This document shows positions 17,861 through 38,763 of a stretch of DNA of 64,000 nucleotides, piece after piece (positions within the stretch are counted from its first letter, which is position 1; every line of letters starts with the position of its first letter). The translations under genes and the position numbers were made by a program. The DNA is taken from contig NZ_QYUP01000087.1 in the NCBI RefSeq assembly GCF_003590855.1, forward strand, positions 1-64,000, in the 5' to 3' direction. Below the pieces are notes generated by a model. It did no database searches and was not told the origin of the DNA. It worked only from the letters and a program-made list of their open reading frames with translations. Source of the stretch: Massilia cavernae (GTDB lineage Bacteria; Pseudomonadota; Gammaproteobacteria; Burkholderiales; Burkholderiaceae_D).

Positions 17861-18835
17861 ATGCTTCAGGCAGGACAGCTCGTACCGCTGGCCGCAGGCG
17901 CCTACCGCCTGCGCCGGCAGCTCGCCGGTTCCAGCTACGGCCTCGTGTGGCAGGCCGCCGGCCCGCACGGCGACGTCGCCCTCAAGCTGGTCAACCGCCC
18001 CCACATGGCGCGCGCGCATCCGTCGCAGCGCAGCCGCTGGATCGCCAGCGCCAATACCGAAATCGCCTTCCTCCGTTCGCTGCGTCCATGGGACGAGCGC
18101 CACATCGTGCGCCTGCTCGACTGCGGCGAGCATGACGGCCTGCCGGTCATGGCGCTCGAACTGCTCGACACTGACCTCGCCCACCACCTGGCGCGCGAAC
18201 GCGAAGCCGGCCGCCGCATCGGCCTGCCCGCCATCCTGCGCTGGCTCGACCAGGTCAACCACGCCCTGGCCAAGGTACACCAATATGGCTGGACCTACCT
18301 CGACCTCAAGCCCGGCAACGTCCTGCTCGACGCCGGGCGCGGGCGCGCCAAGCTGGCCGACTTCGGTACCAGCCGCGCACGCGGCGCAGGCGCGGATGCC
18401 GGCTACGCGGGCACCGCAAGCTGGCAGGCGCCGGAGCAGTTCTTCCCGGCCGCCCACGGCGGCTACGATACCGACTGGCGCAGCGACTACTTCGCGCTCG
18501 GCGCGCTGTTCTACTACCTCGTCACAGATGGACTGATGCTGCGCTTCTGCAGCGATTGCGGCAAGGCCTGGCGCGAGCACCAGCTTGCCGGCGCGCGCAG
18601 GATGCAGCGTGAACTGGGCAGCGCGCAGCCGCAGGTGCTCTCGCCCACAGAGGCGGCGCTGTTCGTGCGCTGCATCCGGCGGCACGCGCATCCAGGCCGG
18701 CGCAGCGGCGCCACCGCCGCGCTTGCCCTGCTGCGCAACTTGATCGCGGCCGAACCTGGTGGCCGCCCATCCCATGCGCTGCAGGTCGCGCGCATGATCG
18801 CGGACATACGCGCCGCAGCGGGTGTCCTCGCATGA
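17861..18835 (+). CDS. Ser/Thr protein kinase, non-RD, cytosolic
   Basis: A 324-residue Hanks-type kinase with no transmembrane segment. Visible motifs: glycine loop AGSSYGLVW (22-30), Lys42 in VALK, catalytic YLDLKPGN (Asp148, Lys150, Asn153), ADFGTS (Asp167) and WQAPEQ (189-193). The usual HRD is YLD, so the arginine that couples activity to loop phosphorylation is missing. It is the first gene of a plus-strand block and overlaps the SEDS gene by four bases (ATGA). The pairing suggests that it phosphorylates the polymerase or FHA partners; this is inference. The RBS is a G-run, GGGGGGG. Confidence 0.9.
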   Translation: MLQAGQLVPLAAGAYRLRRQLAGSSYGLVWQAAGPHGDVALKLVNRPHMARAHPSQRSRWIASANTEIAFLRSLRPWDERHIVRLLDCGEHDGLPVMALELLDTDLAHHLAREREAGRRIGLPAILRWLDQVNHALAKVHQYGWTYLDLKPGNVLLDAGRGRAKLADFGTSRARGAGADAGYAGTASWQAPEQFFPAAHGGYDTDWRSDYFALGALFYYLVTDGLMLRFCSDCGKAWREHQLAGARRMQRELGSAQPQVLSPTEAALFVRCIRRHAHPGRRSGATAALALLRNLIAAEPGGRPSHALQVARMIADIRAAAGVLA

Positions 18836-21192
18836 ACCCGCGCGCCTTCGCCATTCCCCTGCTCGCCCTCCTCTGCCTGCTGCAGCTGGTGGCGCTGGCG
18901 CGCGCGCCAGCCGCGTGGTTCCCGTCCTCGGTCGCGGTCGCGCTGGCGCCAGGCGAAACCATCACCCTCGGCCGGCGCGAGCTCGCCGCCCCGTTGGCCG
19001 ACGCCAGCCAGCTGTGCCTGCGCCGCGACGCCGCCGGACAATGGTGGATCAGGAATGCCAGCGCCTCGCAGCAGCTGATACTGCGCCGCGGCGGCCGCGA
19101 CACGCGCACCGGCAGCATCGCGCTGCAGGCGGGCCAGGAGTTCCGCATCGGCGGCGCCAGCTTCACGGTCACGGCCGCCGGCGGTGGACGCGCCGCGTTC
19201 GAAGGCGCCGGGCACGCCTGGCGGTACGACGGCGCAACCTTGCTGCGCGACGGCCGTCCCCAGGACGCCTGTCCCGGCGCTTCGGTGCCGGCGCGTGCCG
19301 CGGCGGCATGGAACCGGCTCGCGCCGGAAGCGTTGAAGGGCGCGCGTCCGCTCACCATTGGCGGCAACCTGTTCTGTGACAACCGGCTCGCGGCCAGCCC
19401 TGCCGCACCCGGCAGCGCAACCGTGCGCCGCATCGATGGCGTGCTGCGCCTGGAAACCGGGACGGGCGACGACGAGCCTTCGCCGGTCATCGTGTCCAGC
19501 GGCAGCCGATCCCTTGAACTGGCGCCGCGCGAGGAAACGCTGTCCGGCGTCGCCGGCATGGTGGCCGGCCGCACCCGCTTCGCGCTGGCCATCGATGGCG
19601 CGCGCCTGCTGATCGCGCCGCAGCGGCAGGTGGCCTTGTATGCAGAGCCGCGCGCGCTGCTGCCGCAGCCGGTCGAATGGCGCTGGGAACGGCGCAGCAT
19701 GTGGGGCCTGGGCGGCGCGGCTGCCGCCCAGGCCGGCGCCGCATTGTTCTGCCTGCTCGCACTGGCGGCGGGTTGGGCATGGTTGCGCGGCGCCTGGCCG
19801 CTCGCTCGCCGTGCCTCCATGCCAATCCGCCTTGCCTGCGCCGCCAACCTCGCGCTGGCCGCCGCCGGCTTGTGCGTGCTGCTGGCACTGCGCGGCGCGA
19901 CGCCGGTCGGCGCCGGCGTCTCCCTGCTGCTCGGCTGGGCCGCGCTGTGGGCATGCATGCTGGCGCCCGGCCGCCTTGCGCTGGCCACGGCGGCGGGCCT
20001 GCTGCTGGTCGCGGTCGGCCTGTTGGCCCAGCTCGAGCTCGGGCTGGCCTCGATGGAATCGTCGATGCTGCGCCACTTCCAGAAAACCAGCGCGCTGCTG
20101 GCTCTCGGCCTTGGAGCCGGCACGGTGGTCCGCCTGTGGCTGCGGGGCCGCCCTGCACTGCTGCCGCAATCGCGGCTCGAGCCGCTGCTTGCGCTGCTTG
20201 CCGCCGGCGCGCTGGTTGCGCTGCTGCTCCAGGTGGCCTTCGGCGGCGAGACCGGCGTGTTCGACCTGCAGCCTGTGGAATTCGCCAAGCTGGCGCTCAC
20301 CGCGCTCACCGCGCACTGCCTGGCGGTGGGACTGGGCTGGCACGCCACCTTGCCGGAACACGAACCGCGCCTGCTGCGCTGGCTGCGGCTGGGCGCACCC
20401 GTGCTGCTGTTTTTCGCGTTGATGGGCGTCGCGCTGGTGCAGGTCGACGATTTCTCGCCGCTGATCCTGCTGTCGCTGTGGAGCGCCGCGATGCTGCTCG
20501 CGTGGGCGCTCGCGGCCGGCCGGCATGCCGTCAGCGCAGGCTTGCTCGGTGCGGGCCTGGCCGCCGCCGGCGCCATCGTCCTGCTGCGCGGCGCAGGCCC
20601 GGGTCAGCTGGCGGAATGGGGTTTCTACGCAGACCGCTTCATGGTCTGGCTGGAGCCGGCCCGCCACCCGCACACCGGCCAGCAACTGCTGGCGGGGGCG
20701 CGCGCCATCGCCGACGGCGCATGGTTCGGGCAGGACGGGATGCTGGGCATCGCCTCGCTCGGCCTGCCCGGCTCGAACGCGCTCGCCATCCCGGCGGTGC
20801 AGGACGATTTCGCGCCATCGTTCTTCCTCAACCGCCATGGGCTGGCTGCCGGACTGGCGCTGTGGCTGTTGCAGGCGCTGTTCCTGGCCGGCCTGCTGCA
20901 GGCGGCGGTGCGTTCGCATGCCGCCGGCAGCGCCACGCGCGACTTCCGCCAGGCCTGGTCCGGGCGCTTCCGCTGCTTCGCGCTGTGCGGCGGCGCCGCC
21001 TTCGTGCTGGGGCACCTGCTGCTGTCCTGGGGCACCAACCTGGCGATCTTTCCGGTGATGGGGCAGCCCATGAGCTTCCTGTCCGCGGGCGGCAGCCACC
21101 TGCTGTTTTTCATCTGCCCCCTGCTAATACTGGGTGCGGTGAGCGCACAATCTTTAGAGGAGAATCATGATGCCGGTCTATGTCCAACATGA
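18832..21192 (+). CDS. SEDS-family glycan polymerase (RodA/FtsW-like) with N-terminal extracytoplasmic domain
   Basis: A 786-residue membrane protein. Residues ~1-25 form a membrane segment. About 30-270 is a soluble region containing an FHA-like beta pattern (ITLGRREL, then ALQAGQEFRIGGASFTV), and ~285-775 is a multi-helix SEDS core. Core signatures are DLQPVEFAKLAL (family QPSEFxK), YADRFMVWLEPARHP, and QDDF with Asp659 aligning with the RodA catalytic Asp. MGQPMSFLSAGGSHLL matches the family PFxSYGG region. SEDS proteins polymerise lipid II glycan with a transpeptidase partner. Twice the usual RodA length because of the N-terminal region. It overlaps the kinase gene and the next gene. Confidence 0.85.
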   Translation: MNPRAFAIPLLALLCLLQLVALARAPAAWFPSSVAVALAPGETITLGRRELAAPLADASQLCLRRDAAGQWWIRNASASQQLILRRGGRDTRTGSIALQAGQEFRIGGASFTVTAAGGGRAAFEGAGHAWRYDGATLLRDGRPQDACPGASVPARAAAAWNRLAPEALKGARPLTIGGNLFCDNRLAASPAAPGSATVRRIDGVLRLETGTGDDEPSPVIVSSGSRSLELAPREETLSGVAGMVAGRTRFALAIDGARLLIAPQRQVALYAEPRALLPQPVEWRWERRSMWGLGGAAAAQAGAALFCLLALAAGWAWLRGAWPLARRASMPIRLACAANLALAAAGLCVLLALRGATPVGAGVSLLLGWAALWACMLAPGRLALATAAGLLLVAVGLLAQLELGLASMESSMLRHFQKTSALLALGLGAGTVVRLWLRGRPALLPQSRLEPLLALLAAGALVALLLQVAFGGETGVFDLQPVEFAKLALTALTAHCLAVGLGWHATLPEHEPRLLRWLRLGAPVLLFFALMGVALVQVDDFSPLILLSLWSAAMLLAWALAAGRHAVSAGLLGAGLAAAGAIVLLRGAGPGQLAEWGFYADRFMVWLEPARHPHTGQQLLAGARAIADGAWFGQDGMLGIASLGLPGSNALAIPAVQDDFAPSFFLNRHGLAAGLALWLLQALFLAGLLQAAVRSHAAGSATRDFRQAWSGRFRCFALCGGAAFVLGHLLLSWGTNLAIFPVMGQPMSFLSAGGSHLLFFICPLLILGAVSAQSLEENHDAGLCPT

Positions 21193-22594
21193 GGTGCTCG
21201 GCAAGGTGGGCGACGTGTTCAATGCCGAAGCGATATGGCAGGCGCCGGGACTGGCGCTGTTCTCGCGCAAGCCGCTGCTGCGCGACCTGCTGGAACGTTC
21301 GCCGCGCGAACACCGCGGCCGCGCGGCCACGCGCTGCTTCTCGCACGTGACGCTGATGCTGCCCCAGGACGACGTCGACGACGACCGCCACCTGACCCGC
21401 GGCGCGCGCGTGCGCGACCTGGCCCAGTCGCTGGCGGCGCTGCACCAGAAGGATTTCGGCGACCTGCTCAAAGGCGACGACGTGCGCTACGACGTGGTCG
21501 GCGCCGATGCCCTGCAGCCGGGCCAGGTCGAAGTGCGCTTCGGCCATGCCGTCTACCTGCCCGCGCCGGACGAAAAAATTCTGTACGCGGTGACGGCATC
21601 GACCGACAGCGCGGTCTGGAAGCCAGTGTGCGCCATCTACCCCGATCAGCGGCTGGCGCTGATCGGGCATGACAAGGCCACCGCCAGCCACGCGGTGCCG
21701 GGTTGGCCGTTCGGCCCCGCCGGAGCGCTCCTCCTGATCAATGACGGACCCGACGCCCCCATCGAGCTCCAGGTCAGGCCCAAGGACACGCTCGAATGCA
21801 CTTTTGATCCGATCGGCGGCTGCTACGTCCTGAAGGACGGCGCCGCGCGTCTGTTCGTCAAGGTGGCGCGCGTGGGCGCGCCGGCTGCGGCCAAGCCGGC
21901 GGCAGTGTGGAAGACCCGCAGCCTAGATGCCAACGCGGGCACCATGCGTCCGCCGCCGGAAAACGAAGCGACCTTCGCGCCGGCCGCGCAGCAATGCGTC
22001 AGCCTGGCCGCGCTGGCCCTGCCGCGCCTGAGCCGCTACCGCGAAACCGGCATGGAGTCGATGGAAGTGGGCTTCGACAGTGCGCTCGGCGTCACCGCCA
22101 ATGGGGACGACGCCGTGATCCGCTTCTCGGTCGACGCTGACGACCAGCTCCATGCGGTAACCGGCGCCGGCCGCCAGCGCATCAGCGCACCGGCCAGCTT
22201 CGCCCCGGTCGAAGGCGCGCCGATCGCCCTGGCGCCGGTGGCGCCCGAAATGGCCGACCGCTATTGCGCAACCGTGTCGCTGGCGCAGCCGCCCAGCGTG
22301 CCGGTGGCCGCCGGAGTGCGCTTCGAATTCGGCCGGGCGACGCCGATGCTGGCCAGCCTGCGCGTGCTTGGGGGCGCCGACCGCATCGGCCTGTCGCGCA
22401 GCGCCTTCAGTTTCGAAGCCGCCGCCGGCGGCTACCGGATCGGCCGGATCAGCCCCACCCAGGCGCTCTACCACCTCGACGACAAGATGCGCTTCGTGGC
22501 CGCCATCGGCGAGGCCACCGCCGACCAGCCCTACCTGCTGCCGGCCGGGCACCACCTGGTAGCAGGCCATTACGTACTGCGTTTCGATGCCTGA
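21167..22594 (+). CDS. FhaA-like protein with degenerate FHA-type C-terminus
   Basis: A 475-residue soluble protein without an assigned family. The N-terminal ~130 residues show a layout like the FhaA N-terminal domain (DUF3662): RKPLLRDLLERSPREHRGRA, a strand with D-rich loop, VRDLAQSLAALHQKDFG, then VRYDVVGADALQPGQVEVRFG. The C-terminal ~90 residues end in an FHA-like strand set (GADRIGLSRSAF, then LLPAGHHLVAGHYVLRF). The middle is not recognised. It overlaps the SEDS gene by 26 bases, with AGAGGAGA upstream. A role as a phospho-dependent adaptor for the kinase/SEDS pair is inferred from position and these weak resemblances. Confidence 0.65.
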   Translation: MMPVYVQHEVLGKVGDVFNAEAIWQAPGLALFSRKPLLRDLLERSPREHRGRAATRCFSHVTLMLPQDDVDDDRHLTRGARVRDLAQSLAALHQKDFGDLLKGDDVRYDVVGADALQPGQVEVRFGHAVYLPAPDEKILYAVTASTDSAVWKPVCAIYPDQRLALIGHDKATASHAVPGWPFGPAGALLLINDGPDAPIELQVRPKDTLECTFDPIGGCYVLKDGAARLFVKVARVGAPAAAKPAAVWKTRSLDANAGTMRPPPENEATFAPAAQQCVSLAALALPRLSRYRETGMESMEVGFDSALGVTANGDDAVIRFSVDADDQLHAVTGAGRQRISAPASFAPVEGAPIALAPVAPEMADRYCATVSLAQPPSVPVAAGVRFEFGRATPMLASLRVLGGADRIGLSRSAFSFEAAAGGYRIGRISPTQALYHLDDKMRFVAAIGEATADQPYLLPAGHHLVAGHYVLRFDA

Positions 22595-22605: not shown

Positions 22606-23058
22606 ATGTCCGCTATCCCGCTCCTGACACTCGCCGCCTACGCGACGGGGCTGCTGCTGACGCTTGTGCTGGCGGCCTTCCTGACGCCGGCAAGCTGGTG
22701 GCGCCGCCTGAACGCGCGCGCGCTCGCCGTTACCGTGGCCGGCACTTGGGCCGCCGGCAGCCTGCTGGCGGCACTTCTGCCCGCGCACGCCGGCGCGACA
22801 GCTTCCAGCGCGCGCACGGCCACGGCCGCCGCGCCGCAACGCAGCTACCTGGTGTTCCGCGCCCTGAACCTGCGCAGCGGCGCCGGCACCAGCGCACGCC
22901 GCATCGTGGTGGTGCCGGCCGGCGCGGAGGTTGCCGCGACCGGCGCTCGCGAGGGCGACTGGTGGCAGGTACGCGCCACCATCGAGGGACGGAAGGTGAC
23001 CGGTTGGGCCAGCAGCCTGTGGCTGCGTCGCGCCGATGAGGAACCGGCCAGGCGCTGA
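22606..23058 (+). CDS. Membrane protein with bacterial SH3 domain
   Basis: A 150-residue protein with two N-terminal hydrophobic segments (about 4-24 and 37-58) and a C-terminal SH3b domain, likely periplasmic: LVFRALNLRSGAGTSARRIVVV, EGDWWQVRATIEGRKVTGWASSLWL. SH3b domains bind peptidoglycan or cell-wall peptides. It lies 11 bases after the FhaA-like gene and fits a cell-wall role for the block. The larger open frame from 22264 overlaps the previous gene; the ATG at 22606 is the natural start. Confidence 0.8.
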   Translation: MSAIPLLTLAAYATGLLLTLVLAAFLTPASWWRRLNARALAVTVAGTWAAGSLLAALLPAHAGATASSARTATAAAPQRSYLVFRALNLRSGAGTSARRIVVVPAGAEVAATGAREGDWWQVRATIEGRKVTGWASSLWLRRADEEPARR

Positions 23059-23176: not shown

Positions 23177-24430
23177 ATGCCGAAACCGAGTTTCTCTTCC
23201 CCGCTGCCTGCGCAACCGCTGCGCATCCGGGTACCCTTGTCGAAACCGCTACGGCATCCGCGCTACCGGCGCCTGTGGACCGCCAACCTCGTCTCCAACC
23301 TCGGCACCTGGACCCAGACCTTCGCCTCGGCCTGGCTGATCGCCTCGATGTCGAAGGCGGCCGCCGTCACCACCCTGGTCCAGACCGCGAGCTACGTCCC
23401 GATCTTCCTGTTCGCGCTGTTCGCCGGCGTGATCGCCGATGCTGTCGACCGGCCCAAATTCCTCTTCTTCTGCAACCTCTACATGGCCTTGTGCGCATGC
23501 GGGATGGCGGTCCTGGTCATCACCGGCAACGCCTCGGCCGGGCCGGTACTTGCGCTGACCTTCGCGCTCGCCACCGGGTCGGCATTCATGTGGCCGGCCT
23601 GGCAGGCCTCGGTATCGGGGCTGGTGGAACCGGACGAACTGGAAGCGGCGGCCACCCTCAACAACCTGAGCTACAGCGTGGCCTCGATCGTCGGCCCCGC
23701 GCTGGGCGGCCTGCTGTTCAACTGGATCGGCGCCGGCGCGCTGTTCCTGATCAATGCGCTGTCCTTCATCGGCCTGCTGACGGTGTACTGGGCCTGGTGG
23801 CAGGAGCGCCTGCCGCGCACCGAAGCGCCGCACTCCTTCATCCTCAGCATGAAGACCGGCCTGGCCACCGCCTTCGGCTGCGCGCGCTACAAGCGCATCC
23901 TGCTCAATGTCTGCACGGTCTTCTTCGCCAGCATCGCCTTCGCCGCGCTGCTGCCGCTGTTCGTGCGCGACGTGCTGCACCGCGATTCGAGCACCTTCGG
24001 CACCCTGATGGGCAGCCTTGGCGCGGGCGCGGTGCTGGCCGCGTTCTGCCTTCCCAGCCTGCGCGCAGGCGTCGACAAGACCAGGCTGCTCACCGGCGCG
24101 CTGCTGGTGTACGGCGCCATGCTGATGCTGATGCCCTTCATTAGCTCGCTGACAATGCTGGTGCCGCTGATCGTCGGCGGCGGGATGGCCTGGTCCGCCA
24201 TCGTGTCGACCATGAACGCGGCGGCCCAGTCGTCCTTCCCGCCAAGCATACGGGCGCGCACCCTGTCCATCTACCTGTTCGTGATGGCCGGCGGCTATGC
24301 GCTCGGCAGCGTGGTATGGGGCCGCGTGGCCGACCACGTCGGCGTCAGGTACGCACTGGCCGCCGCCGGCGCATGCCTGCTTGTCAATGCCGCCGCCCTC
24401 GCGGCCGGCAAGCGCGCGAACCCGATCTGA
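23177..24430 (+). CDS. MFS transporter (MFS_3, EntS-like)
   Basis: A 417-residue major facilitator with about 12 helices. MFS_3 markers are visible: LRHPRYRRLWTANLVSNLGTWTQT at the N-terminus, PAWQASVSGLVEPDELEAAATLNNL in the loop, VGPALGGLL and the C-terminal RARTLSIYLFVMAGGYALGS. Relatives export siderophores or drugs. It lies between the SH3 and PP2C genes on the same strand, five bases before the phosphatase gene. It may therefore be co-transcribed although its function need not be linked. Poor ribosome site. Confidence 0.85.
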   Translation: MPKPSFSSPLPAQPLRIRVPLSKPLRHPRYRRLWTANLVSNLGTWTQTFASAWLIASMSKAAAVTTLVQTASYVPIFLFALFAGVIADAVDRPKFLFFCNLYMALCACGMAVLVITGNASAGPVLALTFALATGSAFMWPAWQASVSGLVEPDELEAAATLNNLSYSVASIVGPALGGLLFNWIGAGALFLINALSFIGLLTVYWAWWQERLPRTEAPHSFILSMKTGLATAFGCARYKRILLNVCTVFFASIAFAALLPLFVRDVLHRDSSTFGTLMGSLGAGAVLAAFCLPSLRAGVDKTRLLTGALLVYGAMLMLMPFISSLTMLVPLIVGGGMAWSAIVSTMNAAAQSSFPPSIRARTLSIYLFVMAGGYALGSVVWGRVADHVGVRYALAAAGACLLVNAAALAAGKRANPI

Positions 24431-24435
24431 ACGCC

Positions 24436-25398
24436 ATGAGCGGCGGCCTTGACTTCGGCCCACGCCTGGACGTCGCGGCGCACAGCAGCGTCGGCGCAGG
24501 CCCGTCGCCGCGCCTTGAAAACCAGGACAACTTCCTCCTCATCGACACCAAGGGCAAATGCGCCTGGATGCATGGCCAGCAGCCGGTATCCGGCCAGGTC
24601 GACGGCTGGCCCGAAGGCCACGCCCGCGTTGCGGTGCTGGACGGGATGGGCGGCCACGGCCACGGGCGCGAGGCCGCCGAAGCAGCCGCCGACGGCCTGC
24701 GCGCGATGCCGGCGTGCGCGACGGTCGACGAACTGTCGGCCCGCCTCGAAGCCCTGCACGCGGCGCTGCAGCGCCAGTTCGCCGGCGCCGGCGACCAGGC
24801 GCACCGGCCCGGCACCACCCTCACCCTGCTCGAACTCCCGCCCGGCCAGCCCGCGCTGCTGTTCCACGCCGGCGATTCGCGCCTGTACCGCATCGGCCGC
24901 GGCAAGGCCGAGCCCCTGACCATCGACCATGTTCCGGCCACCGCCTTCGCCATGGCCGGACTGCTGCGCGAACGCGAATGGTGGCAGCAGGTGCACGGCG
25001 AACACCGCCCGCAGATCTCGCAGGCCTTCATCCTCGGTAATGCCTTCGCCAATCCGGCGGGGCTGGAAGATCCGCTGTTTGCGCTGACGCCGGCCCTGCT
25101 GCCGCCCTTCCTGCGCCACATGGCCGACCGGCGCGCGGTCGAACTCGAACCTGGCTGCGACTACGTACTGGCCACCGACGGTTTCTGGTCCTGCCCCGAT
25201 GGCGCGGCCTGGGTCGCGCGCTGGCCCGCCCTGCTGGCGATGGAAGCGGGCGCCGACAGCGCCTGTGCCGCGCTGTTCGACGCCATCGAGCGGCAGCCGC
25301 CGCGCGGCCTGCACAGCGACAACCTGACCGCCATCGTGCTGCGGGTGCGCCCGGCCGCCTCCACGGACGAGACCGCCTTACCTGGCCAGCCGGCCTGA
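24436..25398 (+). CDS. PP2C-type Ser/Thr phosphatase (PstP/PppA-like)
   Basis: A 320-residue cytosolic PPM-family phosphatase that would reverse the action of the local kinases. Motifs are RLENQDNF (Asp31), VLDGMGGHGHG (Asp69), GTTLTLLEL, HAGDSRLYR, LATDGFW and HSDNLTAIVL (Asp295), the metal-coordinating set expected for two Mg/Mn ions. No transmembrane anchor, unlike mycobacterial PstP. Start 24436 follows the MFS stop by five bases. A pair of kinases and one PP2C in the same locus argues for reversible phosphorylation of shared substrates. Confidence 0.92.
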   Translation: MSGGLDFGPRLDVAAHSSVGAGPSPRLENQDNFLLIDTKGKCAWMHGQQPVSGQVDGWPEGHARVAVLDGMGGHGHGREAAEAAADGLRAMPACATVDELSARLEALHAALQRQFAGAGDQAHRPGTTLTLLELPPGQPALLFHAGDSRLYRIGRGKAEPLTIDHVPATAFAMAGLLREREWWQQVHGEHRPQISQAFILGNAFANPAGLEDPLFALTPALLPPFLRHMADRRAVELEPGCDYVLATDGFWSCPDGAAWVARWPALLAMEAGADSACAALFDAIERQPPRGLHSDNLTAIVLRVRPAASTDETALPGQPA

Positions 25399-25462
25399 AA
25401 CCTGCGCCACCCCGGCGCCAGAACGGGTAAGCTGCCCGGATCACCGAATGTCCTGGCGAGCG

Positions 25463-26782
25463 ATGAAAAAATGCGGTAATCCGGAGCACCCGTACTGCAC
25501 CCAATGGGTGCTGCCTGGAGAGCTGGCCTGCTCCAGCGGACACGCGCAGCCCGCGCCCGCGCCGGCCCCAGTCGAACTGCCGCAGCACGCCGCGCCCCGC
25601 TCCCACCTGCACATCAGCGGCTTCGATCCGCGCGCCGCCGGCGGCCGCCAGGCCATCAAGGTCGAACTGCGCGGGATGCCGTCCGGCGCGCAGGCCGCTG
25701 TCACGATGGAACTGAAGTCGGCGCTGTTCGAAGGCGGCGCCTCGCGCCATGCCTACGAGCGCAACCTGCACGGCGGATGGCGGCCCCAGTTCGTCGAGTT
25801 CAACGCGCGCGGCAAGGAGCACGGCCAGTACCGCATCGAAGCGGAGCTGCACTGCAGCGAAGCGGGCCGCGTCGCGCGGCGCTGGGTATGCACCCTGATC
25901 GTCCTGGTGCCCCGTCCCGACGCCAGCCTGGGCGAGATCCACAACGCCTTCCTCGCCACCCACAAGAATGTCCGCATCAGCGCCGACGACGCCTCCATCG
26001 CGCGCATCAGCGCGCAGGCGGGCGGCGGCAGCTTCGACATCGGGGTCGACGCGCGCAACGGCTCGATCGCGCGGCTCGACCTCGACGCGCGCAGCGGCCA
26101 GGTGACGGTCGGCTATTCGAGCATCGCGTGGGATGAGGACCTGATCGAAATCGAGGTGCCGGCCGAGCCTGCGCACCATCCGCATCCCGGCATCGCCGGC
26201 TGCCTGTCCAACGCGCCGGGCGGCACGCTGCCGCGCCACATGCGCATTTTCGCGCTGCGCGAATGCGTGCTGGGGAGGTTCGAATCCCTCGATCCGGAAG
26301 CGGACGTGCTGCTCCGGCACTATGGCCAGGAAGGTCCTGAGGAAGGCGGCCTGACACGGCGCCTGTCCGCGCGCCATGCCGTCATCCGCCACACCGGCGC
26401 CGGCTTCGAGATCGAGGACGTGTCGCGCTACGGCCTGCTGCTGGACGGCGCCCCGCCCGGCAAGCACCAGCCGGTGCAGCTCCGGCTGGGGATGACCATC
26501 GAACTGTCGGCCAGCATCCGCGGCATCGTCATGCTGAAGGTCGGCGCGCTGCCGCCCGGCGGCGTGATCCTGCTGCGCACCGACGGTGGCGCGCATGATG
26601 AATGCTTCTACATCGTAGAGCCGGAGCACCATCCGGGCTTGCTGCTGACTGGCCATCCGGCGCTGCCGGCGGCCGCGTCCCTGCCGGTCGTGTTCCACCA
26701 TAACGGCGGCCTGTGGCGCGTGGATGCCGCTTCCGGACAGCAGTCGGCTATCGACGCCGGGCATTGCCTAAACGTGCGGTAG
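25463..26782 (+). CDS. FHA-domain protein with N-terminal zinc-finger-like segment
   Basis: A 439-residue protein. The N-terminus has a Cys/His cluster (C4, H9, C12, C23, H27) resembling a small zinc ribbon. A Pro/Ala linker leads into a beta-rich middle. An FHA domain at about 265-350 carries the canonical residues: LGRF (270-273), RRLSARH (299-305) and SRYGLLLDG. FHA domains bind phosphothreonine, so this protein is a probable reader of the local kinases. The last ~80 residues repeat a beta pattern that could be another small domain. Start at 25463; an in-frame ATG at 25448 adds five residues. It follows the PP2C gene. Confidence 0.88.
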   Translation: MKKCGNPEHPYCTQWVLPGELACSSGHAQPAPAPAPVELPQHAAPRSHLHISGFDPRAAGGRQAIKVELRGMPSGAQAAVTMELKSALFEGGASRHAYERNLHGGWRPQFVEFNARGKEHGQYRIEAELHCSEAGRVARRWVCTLIVLVPRPDASLGEIHNAFLATHKNVRISADDASIARISAQAGGGSFDIGVDARNGSIARLDLDARSGQVTVGYSSIAWDEDLIEIEVPAEPAHHPHPGIAGCLSNAPGGTLPRHMRIFALRECVLGRFESLDPEADVLLRHYGQEGPEEGGLTRRLSARHAVIRHTGAGFEIEDVSRYGLLLDGAPPGKHQPVQLRLGMTIELSASIRGIVMLKVGALPPGGVILLRTDGGAHDECFYIVEPEHHPGLLLTGHPALPAAASLPVVFHHNGGLWRVDAASGQQSAIDAGHCLNVR

Positions 26783-27473: not shown

Positions 27474-29618
<2,145 letters not shown>

Positions 29619-29625
29619 GGAAAGC

Positions 29626-31608: not shown

Positions 31609-31715
31609 TTGAACTCCTGGTGAGTAAAGCTGTCCTTGTTTCGATGACATCATGTTGTACGCAAAATGATTCTAGCAAAGGCTGGTTTACGGCCGCGTTC
31701 TCTATCGTGCGCCCC

Positions 31716-32708
31716 TCAGGGTAGGCCGATATGCTCGATGCAGGCCATGCTGGCGCCCTTCGCCTTTACCGCTGCTGCGAAGCCGGCGTCCAGCCCCGCT
31801 TCCCATGCGCGCGGCAGCAGGATACGGTCGCCGGGCGCCGCCTGCGCCAGGATCAGCGCGCATTTCGGCGCCAGCCCTTCCACTGTATCGACCCTTCCGG
31901 ATTGCCAGGCCGACGAACAGCCGGTCGCGATCACCCTGCCGCGGGCCAGGAATTCGCGCCCGCGCGCCATGCGGTCGGCCACCACCAGCGCCAGTTCGTA
32001 GGACTTGCCGTGGAAGCGGGGCTGGCCGAAGCGGACGGCGGTGCGCCAGCGCCCCTCGGCACGCGCGTCGAAGCGCCGCGCCGCTGCCAGCGCCTGCCGC
32101 ACCGCCAGCTGGCCGGTCACGTCCAGCCCAGGTACCGCGATGGTGTCCTCCTCCTCGCCGGCCGGCGCCGCCAGCGGATAGACGCTGACCTCGACCCAGC
32201 ACAGGCTGTCGTTGATGCCGCCGCTATGCAGCGGGAACCAGGCGCGCGCGCCCGACACCGCGCCGCTGGCGCAGGACTGGCCGTGCAGCGCGCCCAAATG
32301 GGTGACGCCGCCGGGACCTCCCAGCAGCAGTCCCTCGCGTCCCGCCCCGTGCGCGTGGCCGCCGACGCGGCCCAGGTGCCATTCGTCCGACCAGCCATTG
32401 GCGGCCAGTCCCGGCTGCGGCGGCAGCACGCCGCGCGCCATGCGGTCGGCCAGCACGGCGGCCAGTTCCCAGTCGCGTTCGTGCGGGGCCGGCGCGCGGT
32501 CGGCCGTGAGCAGCACCTGGTCGCGGCTGTCGAAGCGCGGCTCGGTGAGCCGTGCAAGCCGGACCACCTGCTGCATGCGCTCCGCCAGCTGCGGTCCGCC
32601 GGCGCCGGCGCACTTGACGTCGGCGCGGCCGGCCCGCTCGCGCCGGGTGGCGCAAATGGTCATCACGCTGCCGTCGGCAAGGATGCTGCGGCATTCTGCG
32701 GCGCTCAT
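31716..32708 (-). CDS. Tandem Lon-like (S16-type) domain protein
   Basis: A 330-residue protein with an internal duplication. WELAAVLADRMARG (80-93) and YELALVVADRMARG (237-250) are each followed by a similar strand-turn segment ending GRV. The second copy aligns in my reading with the Lon protease S16 fold: GKSYELAL for GPSAGLAL, VIATG for AMTG, EGLAPKCALILAQ for GGLKEKLLAA, then RILLP. This places Ser236 and Lys282 at the Lon Ser-Lys dyad. The first copy has Asp where the Ser would be. No ATPase domain is present. ATGA overlap with the upstream gene shows coupling. Otherwise unrecognised. Confidence 0.6.
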   Translation of the reverse strand: MSAAECRSILADGSVMTICATRRERAGRADVKCAGAGGPQLAERMQQVVRLARLTEPRFDSRDQVLLTADRAPAPHERDWELAAVLADRMARGVLPPQPGLAANGWSDEWHLGRVGGHAHGAGREGLLLGGPGGVTHLGALHGQSCASGAVSGARAWFPLHSGGINDSLCWVEVSVYPLAAPAGEEEDTIAVPGLDVTGQLAVRQALAAARRFDARAEGRWRTAVRFGQPRFHGKSYELALVVADRMARGREFLARGRVIATGCSSAWQSGRVDTVEGLAPKCALILAQAAPGDRILLPRAWEAGLDAGFAAAVKAKGASMACIEHIGLP

Positions 32709-33718
32709 GCGGCATACCCTCCCGCGGCGCGGCGCGCGGCGCAATCGTGTTCGAGGTTGGCCGCGATGCGTTCGGCATCGTCGAAGATGGCCGCTTGCGG
32801 TTCGCCGCCCTTGAGCCTTGCGAGCATCGCCCAGGCCTCGTCCAGCGAGACGGCGGCGCGCATGCTGTGGCCGATGCGGCGAGCCTGCTGGCTGGCGCAG
32901 AGCGGCCTGCCGGGCGCCTCCAGTTCGAGCGAAGGCATGGTGGCGACCGACAGGCCGGCATCGCCGAGCCGCTGGAGCAGCGCCTGGCGCCGCTGGAACT
33001 GCCCTGGCGGCCAGTCGAACATGCGCAGTGCCGCCGCGATGCGGGGCAGCTCCAGGAACAGGCGCCGCAGCGCGCGTGCGTCGTCGGCGGCCTGCGGCGC
33101 GGGTGGCGCCGCAGCCGCAGGCGGCGCTTCGGCTTGCGTCGTCGCGGCTGCGCGCGCCAGCAGCATGGCGGCATAGTCGCGCCCACCGGACAGGTCGGAC
33201 GGCGCGCAGTGTTCAACCGTGATGCCGAAGCGGGTGTACATCAGTTCGTCGAAACCGGCACGGAAGGCATCCCATTCGGCCAGCGTGGCGCATGGCGGCA
33301 GGTCCAGCTGGCCCTGCGCCAGCTCGCGCCGCAGTGCGGCTTCGACCGACGCCGCCAGCGCGGCAGCGTCGAGCCGCTCGCCGCATTCGCTCGCCAGGAA
33401 CAGGTCGAAGCGCTGCTGGCCGACGCGCGGGTCGGGGCTGTCGACTACCCAGGCCAGGCTGATGCCGGCCTCGGGCGCCGCTTCGAACGGTACCAGATCG
33501 GCGGTGTAGGGGCCGGGATGGAAGCACCATGCGGCGGCGCCGGCCGGAGGATTCACGCGTTCGCCCTCGGACACACGGTGGGTGACGCCCTGCCGGTCGC
33601 AGGCGACGCCGACGCAGCCGGGCGGCACGATACAAGGCGCCGCGATGCGCAGCGCAACGGTGTCCGCGCCGAGGGCGGCAAGTGCCCCGACGCATTCGGA
33701 TCGCCTGAAGATGCCCAT
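32705..33718 (-). CDS. SPFH-like accessory protein
   Basis: A 337-residue protein that I cannot place firmly. Residues about 15-175 show a band-7/SPFH-like pattern: PPGCVGVACDRQGVTHRVSEG, WVVDSPDPRVGQQRFDLFLAS, LAASVEAALRRELAQGQLDLP and FDELMYTRFGITVEHCAPSDL, similar in layout to the larger zinc-ribbon SPFH protein downstream. An Ala/Pro linker leads to a helical C-terminus. It is bounded by a 9-base gap upstream and an ATGA overlap downstream, so it belongs to the same operon. Confidence 0.6.
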   Translation of the reverse strand: MGIFRRSECVGALAALGADTVALRIAAPCIVPPGCVGVACDRQGVTHRVSEGERVNPPAGAAAWCFHPGPYTADLVPFEAAPEAGISLAWVVDSPDPRVGQQRFDLFLASECGERLDAAALAASVEAALRRELAQGQLDLPPCATLAEWDAFRAGFDELMYTRFGITVEHCAPSDLSGGRDYAAMLLARAAATTQAEAPPAAAAPPAPQAADDARALRRLFLELPRIAAALRMFDWPPGQFQRRQALLQRLGDAGLSVATMPSLELEAPGRPLCASQQARRIGHSMRAAVSLDEAWAMLARLKGGEPQAAIFDDAERIAANLEHDCAARRAAGGYAA

Positions 33719-33727: not shown

Positions 33728-34279
33728 CTATGCGCGCGCGGGCTGGATGGTGAAACCGCCGCCAAGCGCCTGGAAATGGGCGGCGGGTGCGTCCGGGAAC
33801 GGCCAGGCGGCCTCGCACTCGCCGTCCGTATCGAGGTGGCCCTGCATCACCGCGCCGCCCTCGCCGTCGCGCACCCGCAGGAGCGGCCGTTCGCGCAGCA
33901 GGCGCGCGGCATACGGTGCATTGGCCGCCAGCGCAAGGATCACCCGCCATGCGCCGCCGTCCTCGACGAAGTGCAGCGTCCAGCAGCCGTCGTCGGTCGC
34001 CAGCGCCTGCAGTTCGTGGCCGCTGCTGGCGGCGCGCAGCATGCCCCTGCTGCCTTTCCACGCACCGGCGGCGCGGTGCTCCAGCGCCAGGTGGCGGAAG
34101 CGGCGCAGCGTCAGCGGCGACAGTTCGAGCGCGTGCCGTTCGGTGGCGGTCAGCGGCCGGCTGCTATCCAGCGCGGAGGCGATGATATCGTCCGCCAGCA
34201 GCAGGCTGTCGCCCTCCACCCTGCGCGAAATCAGCACATGTGCCTGGAGCCTTGCGGCGTTGTTCACTGGGTTGCTCAT
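33728..34279 (-). CDS. Hypothetical protein
   Basis: A 183-residue soluble protein, no recognised domain, signal peptide or membrane helix. The N-terminal half is helical and Leu/Arg-rich (LTATERHALELSPLTLRRFRHLALEH). The C-terminal half is beta-rich with Trp and Gly turns. It lies 10 bases after the preceding operon gene and 9 bases before the next, so co-expression with the SPFH, Lon-like and kinase genes is likely. GAGAAC precedes the ATG. Confidence 0.6.
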   Translation of the reverse strand: MSNPVNNAARLQAHVLISRRVEGDSLLLADDIIASALDSSRPLTATERHALELSPLTLRRFRHLALEHRAAGAWKGSRGMLRAASSGHELQALATDDGCWTLHFVEDGGAWRVILALAANAPYAARLLRERPLLRVRDGEGGAVMQGHLDTDGECEAAWPFPDAPAAHFQALGGGFTIQPARA

Positions 34280-34289: not shown

Positions 34290-35513
34290 TTAGGGCCGGT
34301 TTTCCAGAAGCCTGGCGATTGCCTGGTCGCGCCGCTTGCGCAAGGTCGGCAGCGAGACCTGGTCGAGCATGGCCAGTTGCTGCATCGTCGGCAGCTGCCC
34401 GGTGGTTGGATCGAGCCAGGCGTCCGGATAGGTGTCGTCGGCCCCGCCCATCATCTTCAGGTACACGGCCAGGTAGACCGGCAGCGAACTGGCCGCAAGC
34501 GTGCGCGCCGTCCAGCTGGCGCCGTCCTTCGCCGAGCGTGCCAGCTCCATATAGCCGGGGGGCAGGCAAACCGCGCTGGCCAGCGCGGTCTCGCCGGGGG
34601 CCGGCTCGCTCACCAGGGCCGGTACCGCATCGTCCTCGCGCGCCTGCGCGGCGTCCGACTCGTCCAGCACCCGCCACAGGTCTTCGATCCACTCGGTCGC
34701 TTCGGCGGCATCCAGCAACCGGTCGCAGTCGCCGTTGGACGACAGTTCCTCGTACTCGCCGATCTCGGCTAGCATGGCCTGGATCTTGTCCGGGCTGTTC
34801 TTCAGGCTGGCGAAGCGCTTCGACTTCGTGTGCAGCGGCCCGGTGCCGCCGCCGAAGCGCTCCAGCGATGCGCTCCACCGGACCACCCACTCGGCACGGC
34901 AAGCCCCGCTACCGCGCATCTGCCTCGCCTCGATCGGCACGCCGCCCGGCTCGCGGCCAAGGATGGCCGCCACCTGTTCCGGATGCTCGTGCCACGCGGC
35001 GAATATGCGGGCGATCTCGCCGGCCGCGGTGTCGAGCATGCGGTAGGCGTATATGCGGTTCGGACTGCACGGACGCCCGCAGGCGGCCTGGTAGTTGTCC
35101 GAGTCCACCTTGTCGCGCAGGACCGCGAACATGTCGTTGGCCTTCTTGCGCAAGGCCGCCTCGCCGCCGGGCGCATCCCAGAACGCGCCGCAGCGCGCGT
35201 GTTCGGCAGCGACCGCGTGGCGGAAGGCGCTCCAGTCGGCGGGCCGCGCCTGCAGTTCGCACACCAGCGCGAGCGCCAGTTCCAGCGCCGTATCGCCGTA
35301 GCTGTTGGCCTGGGCCGACGCGCGCGCGCTGCGGCGGGTGGTGTGAAGGCTCTCGGCCATCGCGTCCAGGTAAGCGGCCAGGCTGTCCGCTTCGGCCGCG
35401 TCGTCCAGCAACTGCGGGCAGGCGCCGGCGAGCGCCTGCAGCGAGCAGTGCCCCAGCAGCTTGCGGACGTGCTCCCAGCCGTGCTCCTGGTAACGGGTTC
35501 CCGGCAATCGCAT
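34290..35513 (-). CDS. Hypothetical protein with C-terminal HTH-like helices
   Basis: A 407-residue, largely helical soluble protein. Not recognised. The final ~35 residues (LPTMQQLAMLDQVSLPTLRKRRDQAIARL, split here as a helix-turn-helix-like pair) recall the region-4 fold of sigma factors, but without enough detail to call one. A CGRPC motif near 145 and other cysteines are scattered. It is the first gene of the minus-strand operon. GAGG sits five bases before the ATG, and an AT-rich stretch (35560-35576) upstream could hold the operon promoter. Confidence 0.6.
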   Translation of the reverse strand: MRLPGTRYQEHGWEHVRKLLGHCSLQALAGACPQLLDDAAEADSLAAYLDAMAESLHTTRRSARASAQANSYGDTALELALALVCELQARPADWSAFRHAVAAEHARCGAFWDAPGGEAALRKKANDMFAVLRDKVDSDNYQAACGRPCSPNRIYAYRMLDTAAGEIARIFAAWHEHPEQVAAILGREPGGVPIEARQMRGSGACRAEWVVRWSASLERFGGGTGPLHTKSKRFASLKNSPDKIQAMLAEIGEYEELSSNGDCDRLLDAAEATEWIEDLWRVLDESDAAQAREDDAVPALVSEPAPGETALASAVCLPPGYMELARSAKDGASWTARTLAASSLPVYLAVYLKMMGGADDTYPDAWLDPTTGQLPTMQQLAMLDQVSLPTLRKRRDQAIARLLENRP

Positions 35514-35601: not shown

Positions 35602-37770
35602 TCAAGGGCCAGTCGTCGCCAGCGCCGCCAAAAGCGCCGCCGCCATCGGTGCCGCATGCTCGCCGCCGGTTGCCTCCGAGTGGCTGGCGAAGGCCGCCAC
35701 CGCCAGCCGCCGTTTTTCGCCGGGGATGCTACCCGGTTCCAGCCAGCCGGTGAACCACACCGTCGACAGCTCGCGCCCGCCGGCGCTGATGGTGGGGGCG
35801 GTGCCGGTTTTGCCGGACATGCCGCGCCGGATATCCCGCAGACCTTGACCGCGGAAAGCGCCGGCCGCCGTCCCCGCGTCGACCACACCCTTCATGCCGG
35901 CACGCACGCGGTCGAGGCGCACGCCCAGCGGCTCCACCACCGCTTCGTGCGCATCGTGGCCATCAAGGGCAAGCAGCAGGCGCGGAGCCGCGACGCCGCC
36001 CTGTCCGACCGCGGCCGACACCAGTGCCATCTGCAATGGGGTCGCCTGCATGCGCAGCCCGATCGCCATCTGGCGCAGCTCATGGCGTGTATGCACCGGG
36101 TCGATGCGCGCCGGGCTGGCTTGCAGCGCGTCCCATTGCTGCCACGCGTAGTCGGCTGGCAGCAGGCCGCCGTCAAGGCGCCACGCGCGCCCGAAGCCAA
36201 GGCGGCGCGCCATGCCCGCGATCGGCCGCACCGTGTCGAGCGCCCCCTCCTCCAGCGGCTGTAAATCGGGAGCCCCGCCGTCCGGCCGTCCAAACAGGCT
36301 GCGGTCGGCCAGTTCGCCCGACCACGCGAACCAGGTATTCAGGCTGTACGACAGCGCCTGCGCCAGGCCGAGCCGCCCGTCCTGGGCGCGCCGGTCGAGG
36401 TGCTGGTCACGGTAATTTGTGATGTGGGCCAGCCGCGTGTTGGCCGGATAGGCGGCGGCATTGGTCTGGAACGCGAAGCCGCGCTGCGCAGCCATCTCGT
36501 TGATGGCGTCCAGCGGCAGGCCGGCCAGCAAGCCATCCAGCCGTGCGTCGCGCTGCGCCGCCAGTTCCAGCCCGAGCGCGCTGATCACCTTGAAGGTGGA
36601 ACCCGGGCTGCGGTGGGCGCCGCCGTCGTGCTGGAAGGCCGGCAAGCGCAGCGGGCTGCGCGCGGGATTGGTGCGGTCGAAGTTGCGCACCTCGTCCCAG
36701 TTAGCCGCCGTGACAGTGCCGGAGCCGGCGCCTGCGGCAGCGAGGATGTCGCCGCTGGCCGCATCGACCAGCACGATCCCGGCCTGGCGGCCAGGAGGCG
36801 CCGGCTGCCCGCCATGGCACTTGGAGCCGTCCCAGATGCCGCGCCGCATGCCGATGCATTCGAGGATACGCTGGCTGGCCGCCTGCAGTACGAGGTCGAG
36901 GCTGAGGCGCGCTTCATGCGGCGCGCCTGCCGGCGACGGCAGCCTCGCCAGCATGCCAGCCAGGCTGTTGGCGTGGTCCCTCCGCAGCCCCAGCAGCGGC
37001 GCCAGGCCGGCGTCGATAGCGGCGGCCGTGGGCGTCCCGCCGCTCCACAGCAGCACGCCATTGCGGTCGGCCAGCCGGATGGCAGCAGGTAGCCGGGGCT
37101 GCGCTGGCGCGCCACCGCTTCGCAGCGTATGCCATGCAAGCCGGCCCGCTTCAACCCGGATGTGGCGGTACTGCTGGTCGGCGGGATTGGCCAGCGCCGC
37201 CATGTCGAGCGGCGATGCATGGACGGTGAGGCTGCGCGTGCCGGGCATCAGGTCGAGGTCGAGCAGCTGGGCGGCGCCGCGCGAGGGACAGGCACGACCA
37301 GTGCAGGCGTCGGCCGGAGGACCGTTCAGGCGTGCGCCATCGACCGCCAGCACACGCCCGGCGAGCATCAGCTGCACGCGCTCGCCGGCCTGCGCGGGAC
37401 GCGGCAGGACTAGCGTGATGCACGCGGCGCCTGCGTCGGACCAGGCGGCAATGCGAACCCATGGCGCCCAGCCCTCGGGCAGTTCCGCGAACAGGCGGCT
37501 GGCGGCCAGCGGCATCGATGCGCTGAGCGCAGCGGGCGCCCCGCCCACGCTGGCCTGCCACTCGCCCTGCGCCGCCAGCGGACGTATGCGCCAGGCAAGC
37601 AAACGGCGCTCGCTGTTGAATACGCGCACCTGTTCGCGCACGAAGGAGCCGTCGGCCATGCGGTACAGGGGCGTGCCAGTAAGCCGCGCGTTTCGTCGAC
37701 CAGCTTTATTGTGCCATTCCAGGCAGACGCGCGCGGCCGGGAAGAAGCGGCGGACCTGCCCCATGCGCAC
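35602..37770 (-). CDS. Penicillin-binding transpeptidase domain protein, no visible membrane anchor
   Basis: A 722-residue protein with a complete transpeptidase fold. Catalytic STFK is at 391-394, SLN at 476-478 and KTG at 654-656; a family opening SLDLVLQAASQRIL lies near 290. It would cross-link peptidoglycan, probably with the SEDS protein encoded in the same locus. Class B PBPs normally have an N-terminal transmembrane helix, yet none exists here. The helix is instead encoded in the preceding 323-residue frame, which is in the same phase and separated by one TAA. The start is a GTG at 37770 or ATG at 37764, with no ribosome site. Either a two-gene unit or one split gene. Confidence 0.82.
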   Translation of the reverse strand: MRMGQVRRFFPAARVCLEWHNKAGRRNARLTGTPLYRMADGSFVREQVRVFNSERRLLAWRIRPLAAQGEWQASVGGAPAALSASMPLAASRLFAELPEGWAPWVRIAAWSDAGAACITLVLPRPAQAGERVQLMLAGRVLAVDGARLNGPPADACTGRACPSRGAAQLLDLDLMPGTRSLTVHASPLDMAALANPADQQYRHIRVEAGRLAWHTLRSGGAPAQPRLPAAIRLADRNGVLLWSGGTPTAAAIDAGLAPLLGLRRDHANSLAGMLARLPSPAGAPHEARLSLDLVLQAASQRILECIGMRRGIWDGSKCHGGQPAPPGRQAGIVLVDAASGDILAAAGAGSGTVTAANWDEVRNFDRTNPARSPLRLPAFQHDGGAHRSPGSTFKVISALGLELAAQRDARLDGLLAGLPLDAINEMAAQRGFAFQTNAAAYPANTRLAHITNYRDQHLDRRAQDGRLGLAQALSYSLNTWFAWSGELADRSLFGRPDGGAPDLQPLEEGALDTVRPIAGMARRLGFGRAWRLDGGLLPADYAWQQWDALQASPARIDPVHTRHELRQMAIGLRMQATPLQMALVSAAVGQGGVAAPRLLLALDGHDAHEAVVEPLGVRLDRVRAGMKGVVDAGTAAGAFRGQGLRDIRRGMSGKTGTAPTISAGGRELSTVWFTGWLEPGSIPGEKRRLAVAAFASHSEATGGEHAAPMAAALLAALATTGP

Positions 37771-37791: not shown

Positions 37792-38763
37792 TTACCAGCC
37801 CGACCGAGCGCCAAGGCGCACCCAGGGCGCGCCGCCTCGAGGGCTGGAACAGGGATAGGTCTCTCGAGCGTCGCTGCGGGCGCCGCAGGGACTGGTAGTC
37901 GCGCCGGGGGCATCAGCGCGCGCTGGCGCTTGCGCGCCGACGGCGCCAAAGGCATGCACCTGCGCCGCGCGTGCGGCAGCTTGCCCGGGCCGCAGCACCT
38001 GCAGCAGCAGTTCGCCGGATCCACAGGAGCCGCTGGCGCGCCGTTGGATGCGCAACGCGCCTTCGTTCCATACCAGCCAGCCCTCGCGCTTCAGCATGCC
38101 CCGGCCCTGGTCTCGCACGGCACCGCCGCTGGCGTCGCTGATCCAGCGCGCGGCCGTGCCGCCTTCCCACGCCAGCTGCAGGGCGTCGGCGCCGGGGTCG
38201 CCGGTAACGGTCACGCGCGGGACGTCGCCAGACGCAGGCGCCGCCAGCAGTACATTGCGAATCGCGACAGTTCCCGGCCGCGCTTCGTTGCGCGCGGCCC
38301 AGCGCGCAACGTCCTTGAATTGGTAGCCCACCCTGAGCGGCAGCATCCGGGCGCCCGGCCGCAGGGCTTGCCGGCACAGGTCCACTGCCGCCGCCGGCGC
38401 CGCTTTCATGCCTGCCGCGACCAGCACAGTTCCATGCGCCTGCTTGAGCAGCGACACACCCGGAGCATCGGACACAGTGAAGGCCGCGCCGGGCACGGCG
38501 GGCTGGAAGACGGACGCTGCAGAGCCAATCCCCGAGCCCGCGTCCTCCGCCAGCTTGCACGCGTGGCCGGCGATCAGCACCGCCCCGCCCAGCGCGGCAA
38601 GTATCCCTGCCACGCCGACCCATGCAGCCGGGCCGGGAACAGGCAAGCGCAGCCGCGGCGGCGCGACAGGCTTGCGTCGCGCAGCATCGAAATTGCGCCC
38701 GCGCCGCCACGCCTTGCGGCGCTCCGCCCACGCCTGCCATGCAATGTCGATCCGGCCTTTCAT
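37792..38763 (-). CDS. Membrane-anchored protein upstream of the transpeptidase, possible N-terminal part of it
   Basis: A 323-residue frame with a basic cytosolic N-terminus (1-45), one transmembrane helix (about 47-67, AAWVGVAGILAALGGAVLIAG) and a periplasmic beta-rich region to about 270. The last ~45 residues look poorly coded (mixed third-position GC, odd composition), so small indels may lie there. It ends in a TAA 21 bases before the in-phase start of the transpeptidase frame. Organisation matches the missing anchor of that PBP. No family recognised. A GGGAG lies upstream of the ATG. Confidence 0.6.
   Translation of the reverse strand: MKGRIDIAWQAWAERRKAWRRGRNFDAARRKPVAPPRLRLPVPGPAAWVGVAGILAALGGAVLIAGHACKLAEDAGSGIGSAASVFQPAVPGAAFTVSDAPGVSLLKQAHGTVLVAAGMKAAPAAAVDLCRQALRPGARMLPLRVGYQFKDVARWAARNEARPGTVAIRNVLLAAPASGDVPRVTVTGDPGADALQLAWEGGTAARWISDASGGAVRDQGRGMLKREGWLVWNEGALRIQRRASGSCGSGELLLQVLRPGQAAARAAQVHAFGAVGAQAPARADAPGATTSPCGARSDARETYPCSSPRGGAPWVRLGARSGW

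Follow-up and report, generated by a model that had tools for sequence, protein, structure and literature searches.

A Massilia gene block that links a divergent SEDS-PBP pair to kinases, a phosphatase and FHA proteins: a candidate third peptidoglycan synthase

We studied a stretch of 64,000 nucleotides from Massilia cavernae (contig NZ_QYUP01000087.1, positions 1 to 64,000; the whole stretch is called the window), and in it a block of genes at 17861-38763 that joins wall synthesis to phospho-signalling. The locus is real and conserved, and we read it as a dedicated third peptidoglycan synthase under a cytosolic phospho-switch, a reading to which we give a probability of roughly 0.6. In our re-annotation the plus-strand genes (17861-27305) are a Hanks kinase (A), a SEDS protein (B), an FHA protein (C), an SH3b protein (D), an MFS transporter (E), a PP2C phosphatase (F), an FHA-type protein (G) and a DUF1801 protein (H). 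The minus-strand genes (27474-38763) are, as transcribed, a transpeptidase (P+O), N, M, L, K, an SPFH/zinc-ribbon protein (J) and a SHOCT-kinase-FGE protein (I).

In general these genes are found together. A profile search of named genome contigs gave 210 confirmed stretches, and the best 80 of them represent 79 distinct loci. B and C are present in all 79, A in 78, D in 76, and F and G in 73 each; three of the six loci without F, and likewise three of the six without G, are contigs or loci of 5-13 kb. Among the 67 full-length loci, here those longer than 21 kb, A to D are always present and F and G are found in 64 each. The six genes have one order and strand in 63 of the 67. An initial annotation of the window had proposed a co-conserved set of phospho-signalling and wall-synthesis genes, and this is what we find; the opposite pattern, SEDS and PBP (penicillin-binding protein) genes usually standing without kinase, phosphatase and FHA genes, is not seen. 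E (27 of 79 loci) and H (five of 79) are facultative.

The named loci are mostly from Massilia, Duganella and Rugamonas, but Janthinobacterium, Pseudoduganella, Telluria, a record labelled Herbaspirillum and some records named to family or phylum only are also among them. The top named locus, from Massilia agrisoli, has 65% identity in SEDS. Among sampled genomes of the family, SEDS is found in 51 of 245, representing 5 of 44 genera, and the PBP in 53: all 51 SEDS genomes and two drafts, G416 (81% complete) and G285 (610 contigs). In the genus of the window the PBP is present in 16 of 17 sampled genomes. At wider ranges the picture changes: SEDS is found in three of 200 genomes of the order, the window's own counted, and at E 1e-30 only in the window and in genome G544 among 274 genomes of the class. 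For C, at E 1e-6, the window and one family member are the only matches among 398 genomes of the phylum. At the present depth of sampling, therefore, the complete block belongs to part of a single family, with distant outposts elsewhere.

The 16 open reading frames (ORFs) of the block, and three genes that flank it, were mapped in 20 relatives, with 40 kb of sequence for 18 of them, 20 kb for G056 and 48.6 kb for G139. The genes A, B, C, D, F and G are all present in each of the 18 relatives mapped at 40 kb, and 16 of these also have minus-strand-half genes, oriented alike. In G406 the PBP lies 0.8 Mb from the plus-strand half and in G239 on a different contig; both halves are kept in each. 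The far end of the block falls at or past the edge of the mapped stretch in two relatives, G305 and G375. In comparison with three relatives, the nonsynonymous rate (pN) is 0.09-0.30 and the synonymous rate (pS) 0.39-0.56, pN being the lower in 15 of 15 genes (14 of the block, without H and P, and the flanking metallophosphoesterase). The co-occurrence of the genes and a pN well under pS indicate more than chance.

The flanking genes, a metallophosphoesterase (15954-17177), a glycine-zipper-like gene (17226-17789) and a WxxGxW gene (39406-40149), occupy the same flanking places in most mapped relatives, and there is no match to the block among 72,556 plasmid records. A mobile island as the principal explanation was therefore rejected, and the locus is apparently kept in place by descent within the family. 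Genes inserted between block genes share no theme in the two relatives where they were scanned (8 of 12 called genes in G305, 2 of 6 in G438): they include metallo-beta-lactamase-fold, GH16/CBM56, DUF2804, porin, pirin, OsmC, response regulator/GGDEF/EAL and RTX-repeat proteins, and two without a family.

Two distant relatives differ from this pattern. G139, from another family of the order and the sole match among 43 genomes of that family, has PBP, kinase, SEDS and C adjacent to each other, followed by a LysM/SLT lytic transglycosylase and then by a caspase-FGE protein, a PP2C and an AAA protein. At a distance of 13-20 kb there are a second caspase-FGE protein, a relative of J (SPFH) and a relative of the SH3b protein; the 48.6 kb stretch of G139 showed no G, K, L, M or N. 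The caspase (C14)-FGE proteins are at L074:9080-13111 and L073:3964-6114, and a Sel1-repeat protein and an AAA ATPase are also present. At L074:4024-4860 an ORF beside a transposase gene has a sigma-70 region 2 stretch running into an FGE domain. G544, from another order, has SEDS and C only, amid genes that look metabolic by eye; this pair (L160:2220-3995 and the preceding SEDS gene) is perhaps a minimal unit.

The SEDS protein B (18832..21192, plus strand, 786 amino acids) matches PF01098 at 65.1 bits, over a Pfam cut-off of 26.4. Its residue D659 aligns with the Asp in the HTDF stretch of Pseudomonas FtsW (PDB profile alignment, E 4.6e-9), which we take to be the catalytic one, and this position is Asp in 78 of 78 sequences. 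A SEDS polymerase with its Asp, as first annotated, is thus borne out. In addition B has an N-terminal helix and an ectodomain of about 260 residues (approximately 28-290) that is predicted to have an FHA fold. The predicted structure of residues 1-320 has a mean predicted local distance difference test (pLDDT) score of 91.9. When 991 PDB chains were re-aligned to the ectodomain, a comparison in which Z scores of 7-8 can be background, the top 18 rows had Z 5.6-7.6. Thirteen of them are titled FHA, and the other five (APLF, CEP170, SAV0287, the B. subtilis type VII secretion core and PscD) presumably bear FHA-type domains. As the leading rows are uniformly FHA, this fold is the best reading of the ectodomain, although it is no proof. 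The FHA-type rows cover residues 28-286 yet align just 73-97 residues, while other rows align 94-234; we take this to mean that a second beta domain sits within the FHA domain. The phosphate-binding Arg is not kept (Arg at position 48 in 32 of 77 sequences).

Judged by hydropathy and loop charges in 76 sequences, B begins with one helix, which the ectodomain follows; about six helices then precede the stretch that matches FtsW, and FtsW itself reaches that stretch after three helices. The ectodomain is probably periplasmic, and the alternating loop charge is consistent with this.

The partner of B is encoded by P (37792..38763) and O (35602..37770), both on the minus strand. O holds the transpeptidase part of a class B PBP-like protein (PF00905, 58.8 bits, cut-off 22.1), and its STFK/SLN/KTG triad (S391, K394, S476, N478, K654, T655, G656), already noticed in the initial annotation, is invariant in 17 of 17 sequences. 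P holds the N-terminal part of the same protein, a hydrophobic anchor (segment at residue 46) followed by an ectodomain. In 15 relatives, the distant G139 included, P+O is one ORF of 1050-1237 codons from stop to stop; a hydrophobic segment lies close to the N-terminus of its product, and past residue 300 none exceeds 1.8. The window sequence aligns across P and O in a single frame, so the two are parted by one in-frame TAA (37792-37794), a stop that could reflect either an error in the assembly or a recent nonsense mutation.

Two other contigs of the host, C22 and C85, each have a further SEDS gene (PF01098) with a transpeptidase gene close by, and hence the pair in the block is the third one. 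Spacing as in the mrd and dcw loci suggests that the pairs on C22 and C85 are RodA/PBP2 and FtsW/FtsI. In all there are eight PF00905 matches in the host, the one in the window included. The block pair resembles RodA-PBP2 and FtsW-FtsI in having a SEDS core with the conserved Asp and a class B transpeptidase, but it is far under the equivalog cut-offs and carries extra domains: O reaches 64.1 bits against the PBP2 equivalog TIGR03423 (cut-off 455; transpeptidase part only), and B 47.3 bits against the RodA equivalog TIGR02210 (cut-off 336.7). Extra SEDS or SEDS-bPBP enzymes, that is, more than the standard pairs per cell or specialised ones, are also described for Firmicutes (C. difficile, Enterococcus, Listeria); the accessible parts of those descriptions mention no kinase-phosphatase-FHA cassette.

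The product of the pair could conceivably be a different periplasmic glycan, made or transferred from an undecaprenyl-linked precursor, in place of peptidoglycan. The distance of this SEDS from FtsW and RodA would fit such an activity, as would the fused PBP of one relative, in which Pfam recognises the transpeptidase domain alone. However, an invariant transpeptidase triad makes sense mainly with stem peptides, and the SH3b protein and, in G139, the LysM/SLT neighbour point to peptidoglycan. We therefore find another glycan quite improbable.

In C (21167..22594, plus strand) the FHA fold is clearer. It lies in the C-terminal half (residues 270-475), where the predicted structure compared with PDB chains gives Z 12.1 and 2.1 A over 95 residues. 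Structural rows 1-7 and 9-14 are titled FHA domains and row 8 is APLF; some rows are complexes in which the identity of the matched chain is assumed, and no non-FHA fold was recognised among 50 rows. Foldseek gave the APLF FHA domain as its best match (E 3.1e-3, probability 1.00) and nothing below E 0.001. Further, the FHA residues Gly389, Arg390 and Ser410 are invariant in 70 of 70 sequences, and an FHA fold in this half of the predicted structure is strongly supported. With C and the ectodomain of B, structure prediction agrees with the FHA-like regions on two further proteins that had been suggested for this block. C has no hydrophobic segment above 1.6, and its N-terminal half, a domain of no known type, is predicted with low confidence.

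G (25448..26782, plus strand) has a Cys-containing N-terminus, in which Cys9, Cys17 and Cys28 are kept in 74 of 74 sequences, and an FHA-type domain from about residue 266. There is no Pfam FHA match in G. Nevertheless the FHA Gly276 and Arg277 are found in 74 of 74 sequences and Ser307 and His310 in 73 of 73, with Tyr or Phe at the Asn position, and its first description as an FHA protein can be kept. A hydrophobic segment above 1.6 is present in 15 of 19 relatives of G; in the window the peak is 1.47, at residue 357, beside the FHA region.

A kinase, a PP2C and an FHA protein are also the trio of the type VI PpkA-PppA-Fha module, so the block might be a regulatory fragment of a type VI secretion system (T6SS), and G does match the T6SS FHA family (VI_FHA) weakly. 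However, that match is 17.7 bits against a cut-off of 120.25, the T6SS gene VipA of the host is on contig C63 and not in the window, and no T6SS families were found among the scanned block proteins. In place of secretion genes the block has a SEDS protein and a PBP. The fragment was rejected, as in the initial annotation, and its chance is practically nil.

The two Hanks kinases of the block are both well supported against a Pkinase cut-off of 31.7 bits: A (17861..18835, plus strand, 324 amino acids) at 84.2 bits, E 1.3e-23, and I (27474..29717, minus strand, start uncertain) at 129.9 bits. In A the residues Lys42, Glu67, Asp148, Lys150, Asn153, Asp167, Gly169 and Glu192 are invariant in 80 of 80 sequences; in I the catalytic Lys, both Asp and the APE Glu are invariant in 17 of 17. 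I has in addition an FGE-sulfatase domain (203.7 bits) and a SHOCT-like stretch (23.6 bits, under the cut-off of 27). The single PP2C phosphatase, F (24436..25398, plus strand, about 320 amino acids, start picked by eye), matches SpoIIE at 29.3 bits (cut-off 25) and PP2C_2 at 23.7, just below 24, and the seven PP2C motif residues tested are invariant in 74 of 74. These proteins appear to be soluble: no hydrophobic segment above 1.6 was found in A, its 20 relatives included, in F of the window, or in the best matches to I, 19 ORFs of which the one from G406 is kinase A, and only one of 20 F homologues is slightly over the threshold. Pfam finds no PASTA domain in A or I.

Kinases, FGE and SPFH domains could also belong to an envelope-stress or anti-phage conflict system that senses attack, with the SEDS-PBP pair rebuilding or blocking the wall. 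PADLOC kinase models match A and I (best mad6 103.4 bits, PD-T4-6 185 bits), and the G139 version has its two caspase-FGE proteins together with Sel1 and AAA proteins. According to one survey, FGE and peptidoglycan-associating domains are both known among conflict systems, and FGE and FHA domains are among their effectors; FtsW and penicillin do not occur in its text (PMC7159879). Protein kinase domains are likely to match such models generally, however, and among 10 block proteins scanned only the two kinases and, weakly, F (23.6 bits over 20 residues) gave a match, with none in the other seven. The constant flanking genes, the frequency of the PBP in the genus and the missing plasmid match are also unlike mobile defence islands. 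We consider a conflict system unlikely.

The initial annotation saw in the block a mirror of the mycobacterial set. This set is as had been stated: pstP-rodA-pbpA-pknA-pknB-fhaB-fhaA form a seven-gene cluster in actinobacteria that includes a PASTA kinase (PMC6554272). The same classes, kinases, PP2C, FHA proteins, SEDS and class B PBP, are linked in Massilia, and this part of the comparison stands. The differences are several: the kinases and the PP2C of the window are soluble, not membrane-anchored, and without PASTA; the SEDS has an FHA-fold ectodomain and the PBP a large extra N-terminal part; SPFH/zinc-ribbon, FGE-kinase and conserved uncharacterised genes are added; and there are two other SEDS genes in the genome.

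Descent of the block from the actinobacterial locus by horizontal transfer would account for the same classes in one place. It would also account for the layout of C, an uncharacterised N-terminal domain and then an FHA domain, which is the layout of FhaA. However, FhaA_N (PF12401) on C was a look-alike by eye, which a Pfam scan of 40 members, a family search in 12 genomes and a PDB profile search did not support; in the 12 genomes the best weak matches were outside C, whose N-terminal half is poorly predicted. With FhaA_N not found, no PASTA, no membrane segments in the kinases or the window PP2C and an FHA fold added on the SEDS ectodomain, common descent is very improbable, and the likeness to the actinobacterial locus is better seen as an analogy in logic.

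Control of SEDS-PBP machinery by Ser/Thr kinases is a theme of Actinobacteria and Firmicutes. In a full-text literature search, with most subscription papers outside its reach, we found no description of a proteobacterial SEDS-PBP pair under kinase/FHA control, and no paper on SEDS/FtsW with FHA or kinase in Massilia, Oxalobacteraceae or betaproteobacteria.

In the synthase that we propose, B would supply the SEDS glycosyltransferase and P+O the class B PBP that works with it; both proteins have a membrane helix at the N-terminus and one additional domain that is probably periplasmic. Kinases A and I would phosphorylate Thr residues and the PP2C F would take the phosphates off. The cytosolic FHA proteins C and G would read the phosphates and dock on or gate the synthase, and C, a neighbour of the SEDS gene in all loci that we saw, is the likeliest direct regulator of SEDS. 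Without a conserved phosphate-binding Arg, the FHA-fold ectodomain of SEDS is more likely to be a phosphorylation-independent clamp between SEDS and PBP. J may be a scaffold for the complex at the membrane, and D may have a role in wall sensing or binding. The enzymatic activity, direct contacts, phosphorylation targets and topology of the block proteins are inferred. A stronger version, in which proteobacteria of the Massilia group independently assembled a phospho-controlled third SEDS-PBP synthase and re-used the FHA fold outside the cytoplasm as a phosphate-blind SEDS domain, giving two-sided FHA control, is tentative, at a little under even odds.

Several observations weigh against our reading. 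The SEDS is highly divergent, with 48.2 bits against the FtsW equivalog TIGR02614, where the cut-off is 337.5. Six relatives have in-frame stops within SEDS, single ones in G202, G300, G349, G365 and G429 and more than one in the 48% complete G425, and a stop breaks the PBP gene of the present assembly. Kinase A has Leu in place of the HRD Arg in all 80 sequences, and among the 67 full-length loci three are without a recognised PP2C and three without G. G544 has no PBP relative at E 1e-10, and the 40 kb around its SEDS and C genes showed no recognisable kinase or phosphatase of the block, so SEDS and C can exist without the rest.

The ectodomain of B adds points of the same kind. Support for its FHA fold is moderate because plain Foldseek gave no match below E 0.001. 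Profile comparison of this ectodomain with G gave nothing significant (E 0.012 and 0.06), the former being the best among all sequence-profile links between the SEDS ectodomain, the N-terminal part of the PBP, C and G, none of them significant. Its periplasmic placement comes from hydropathy and loop charges, and the fifth of the six helices is weak.

The remaining genes have less defined roles. D (22606..23058, plus strand) has two hydrophobic segments and an SH3b domain (SH3_3, 37.6 bits, cut-off 27), and J (29626..31653, minus strand) has a zinc ribbon, an SPFH/Band_7 domain (24.2 bits, cut-off 23.6), a long charged region and a Cys cluster at its C-terminus; both domain calls of the initial annotation hold. 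The zinc-ribbon matches of J are under their cut-offs, but Cys27, 30, 41, 44, 653, 666 and 669 are invariant in 13 of 13 sequences. K (31716..32708, minus strand) is a conserved protein for which the earlier label Lon-like could not be confirmed: a Lon profile matches in 0 of 11 members and there is no Lon among its PDB sequence matches. Its Ser236 and Lys282, which are 46 residues apart and invariant in an alignment of 11, resemble the Lon dyad.

L (32705..33718) is conserved, with a 14-member alignment, no Pfam match and no profile link to J; M (33728..34279) is conserved and sits between L and N in relatives; N (34290..35513) has an invariant C-terminal stretch near LPT..QLA and PTLRKRR in an 11-member alignment, no PDB match and no Pfam match better than E 0.24. 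These three are on the minus strand. On the plus strand, E (23177..24430; MFS_3, 317.9 bits) is a facultative passenger and H (26799..27305; DUF1801, 57.8 bits) is also facultative. Overlaps of 4 bases between A and B, 26 between B and C and 4 between K and L are operon-like spacing. The third-position GC is 0.84-0.89 in the minus-strand genes I to O and 0.79 in P, and we regard several large ORFs on the plus strand, between 28 and 35 kb, as shadows of these genes.

Since most sampled genomes of the family are without the locus, it is probably used for wall repair or special growth and not for routine growth. The special wall layer that the initial annotation expected as its output would be a possible product. 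The packaging of a third wall-enzyme set with kinases, a phosphatase and phosphate readers is a layout known from actinobacteria that we have not found described for these Gram-negatives. If our reading is true, a SEDS enzyme that bears an FHA fold outside the cytoplasm would represent a regulatory attachment of a new type. Further, the phospho-control of SEDS could then be studied without killing the cell, in a genetically separate synthase that is apparently dispensable and has a kinase, a phosphatase and readers of its own.

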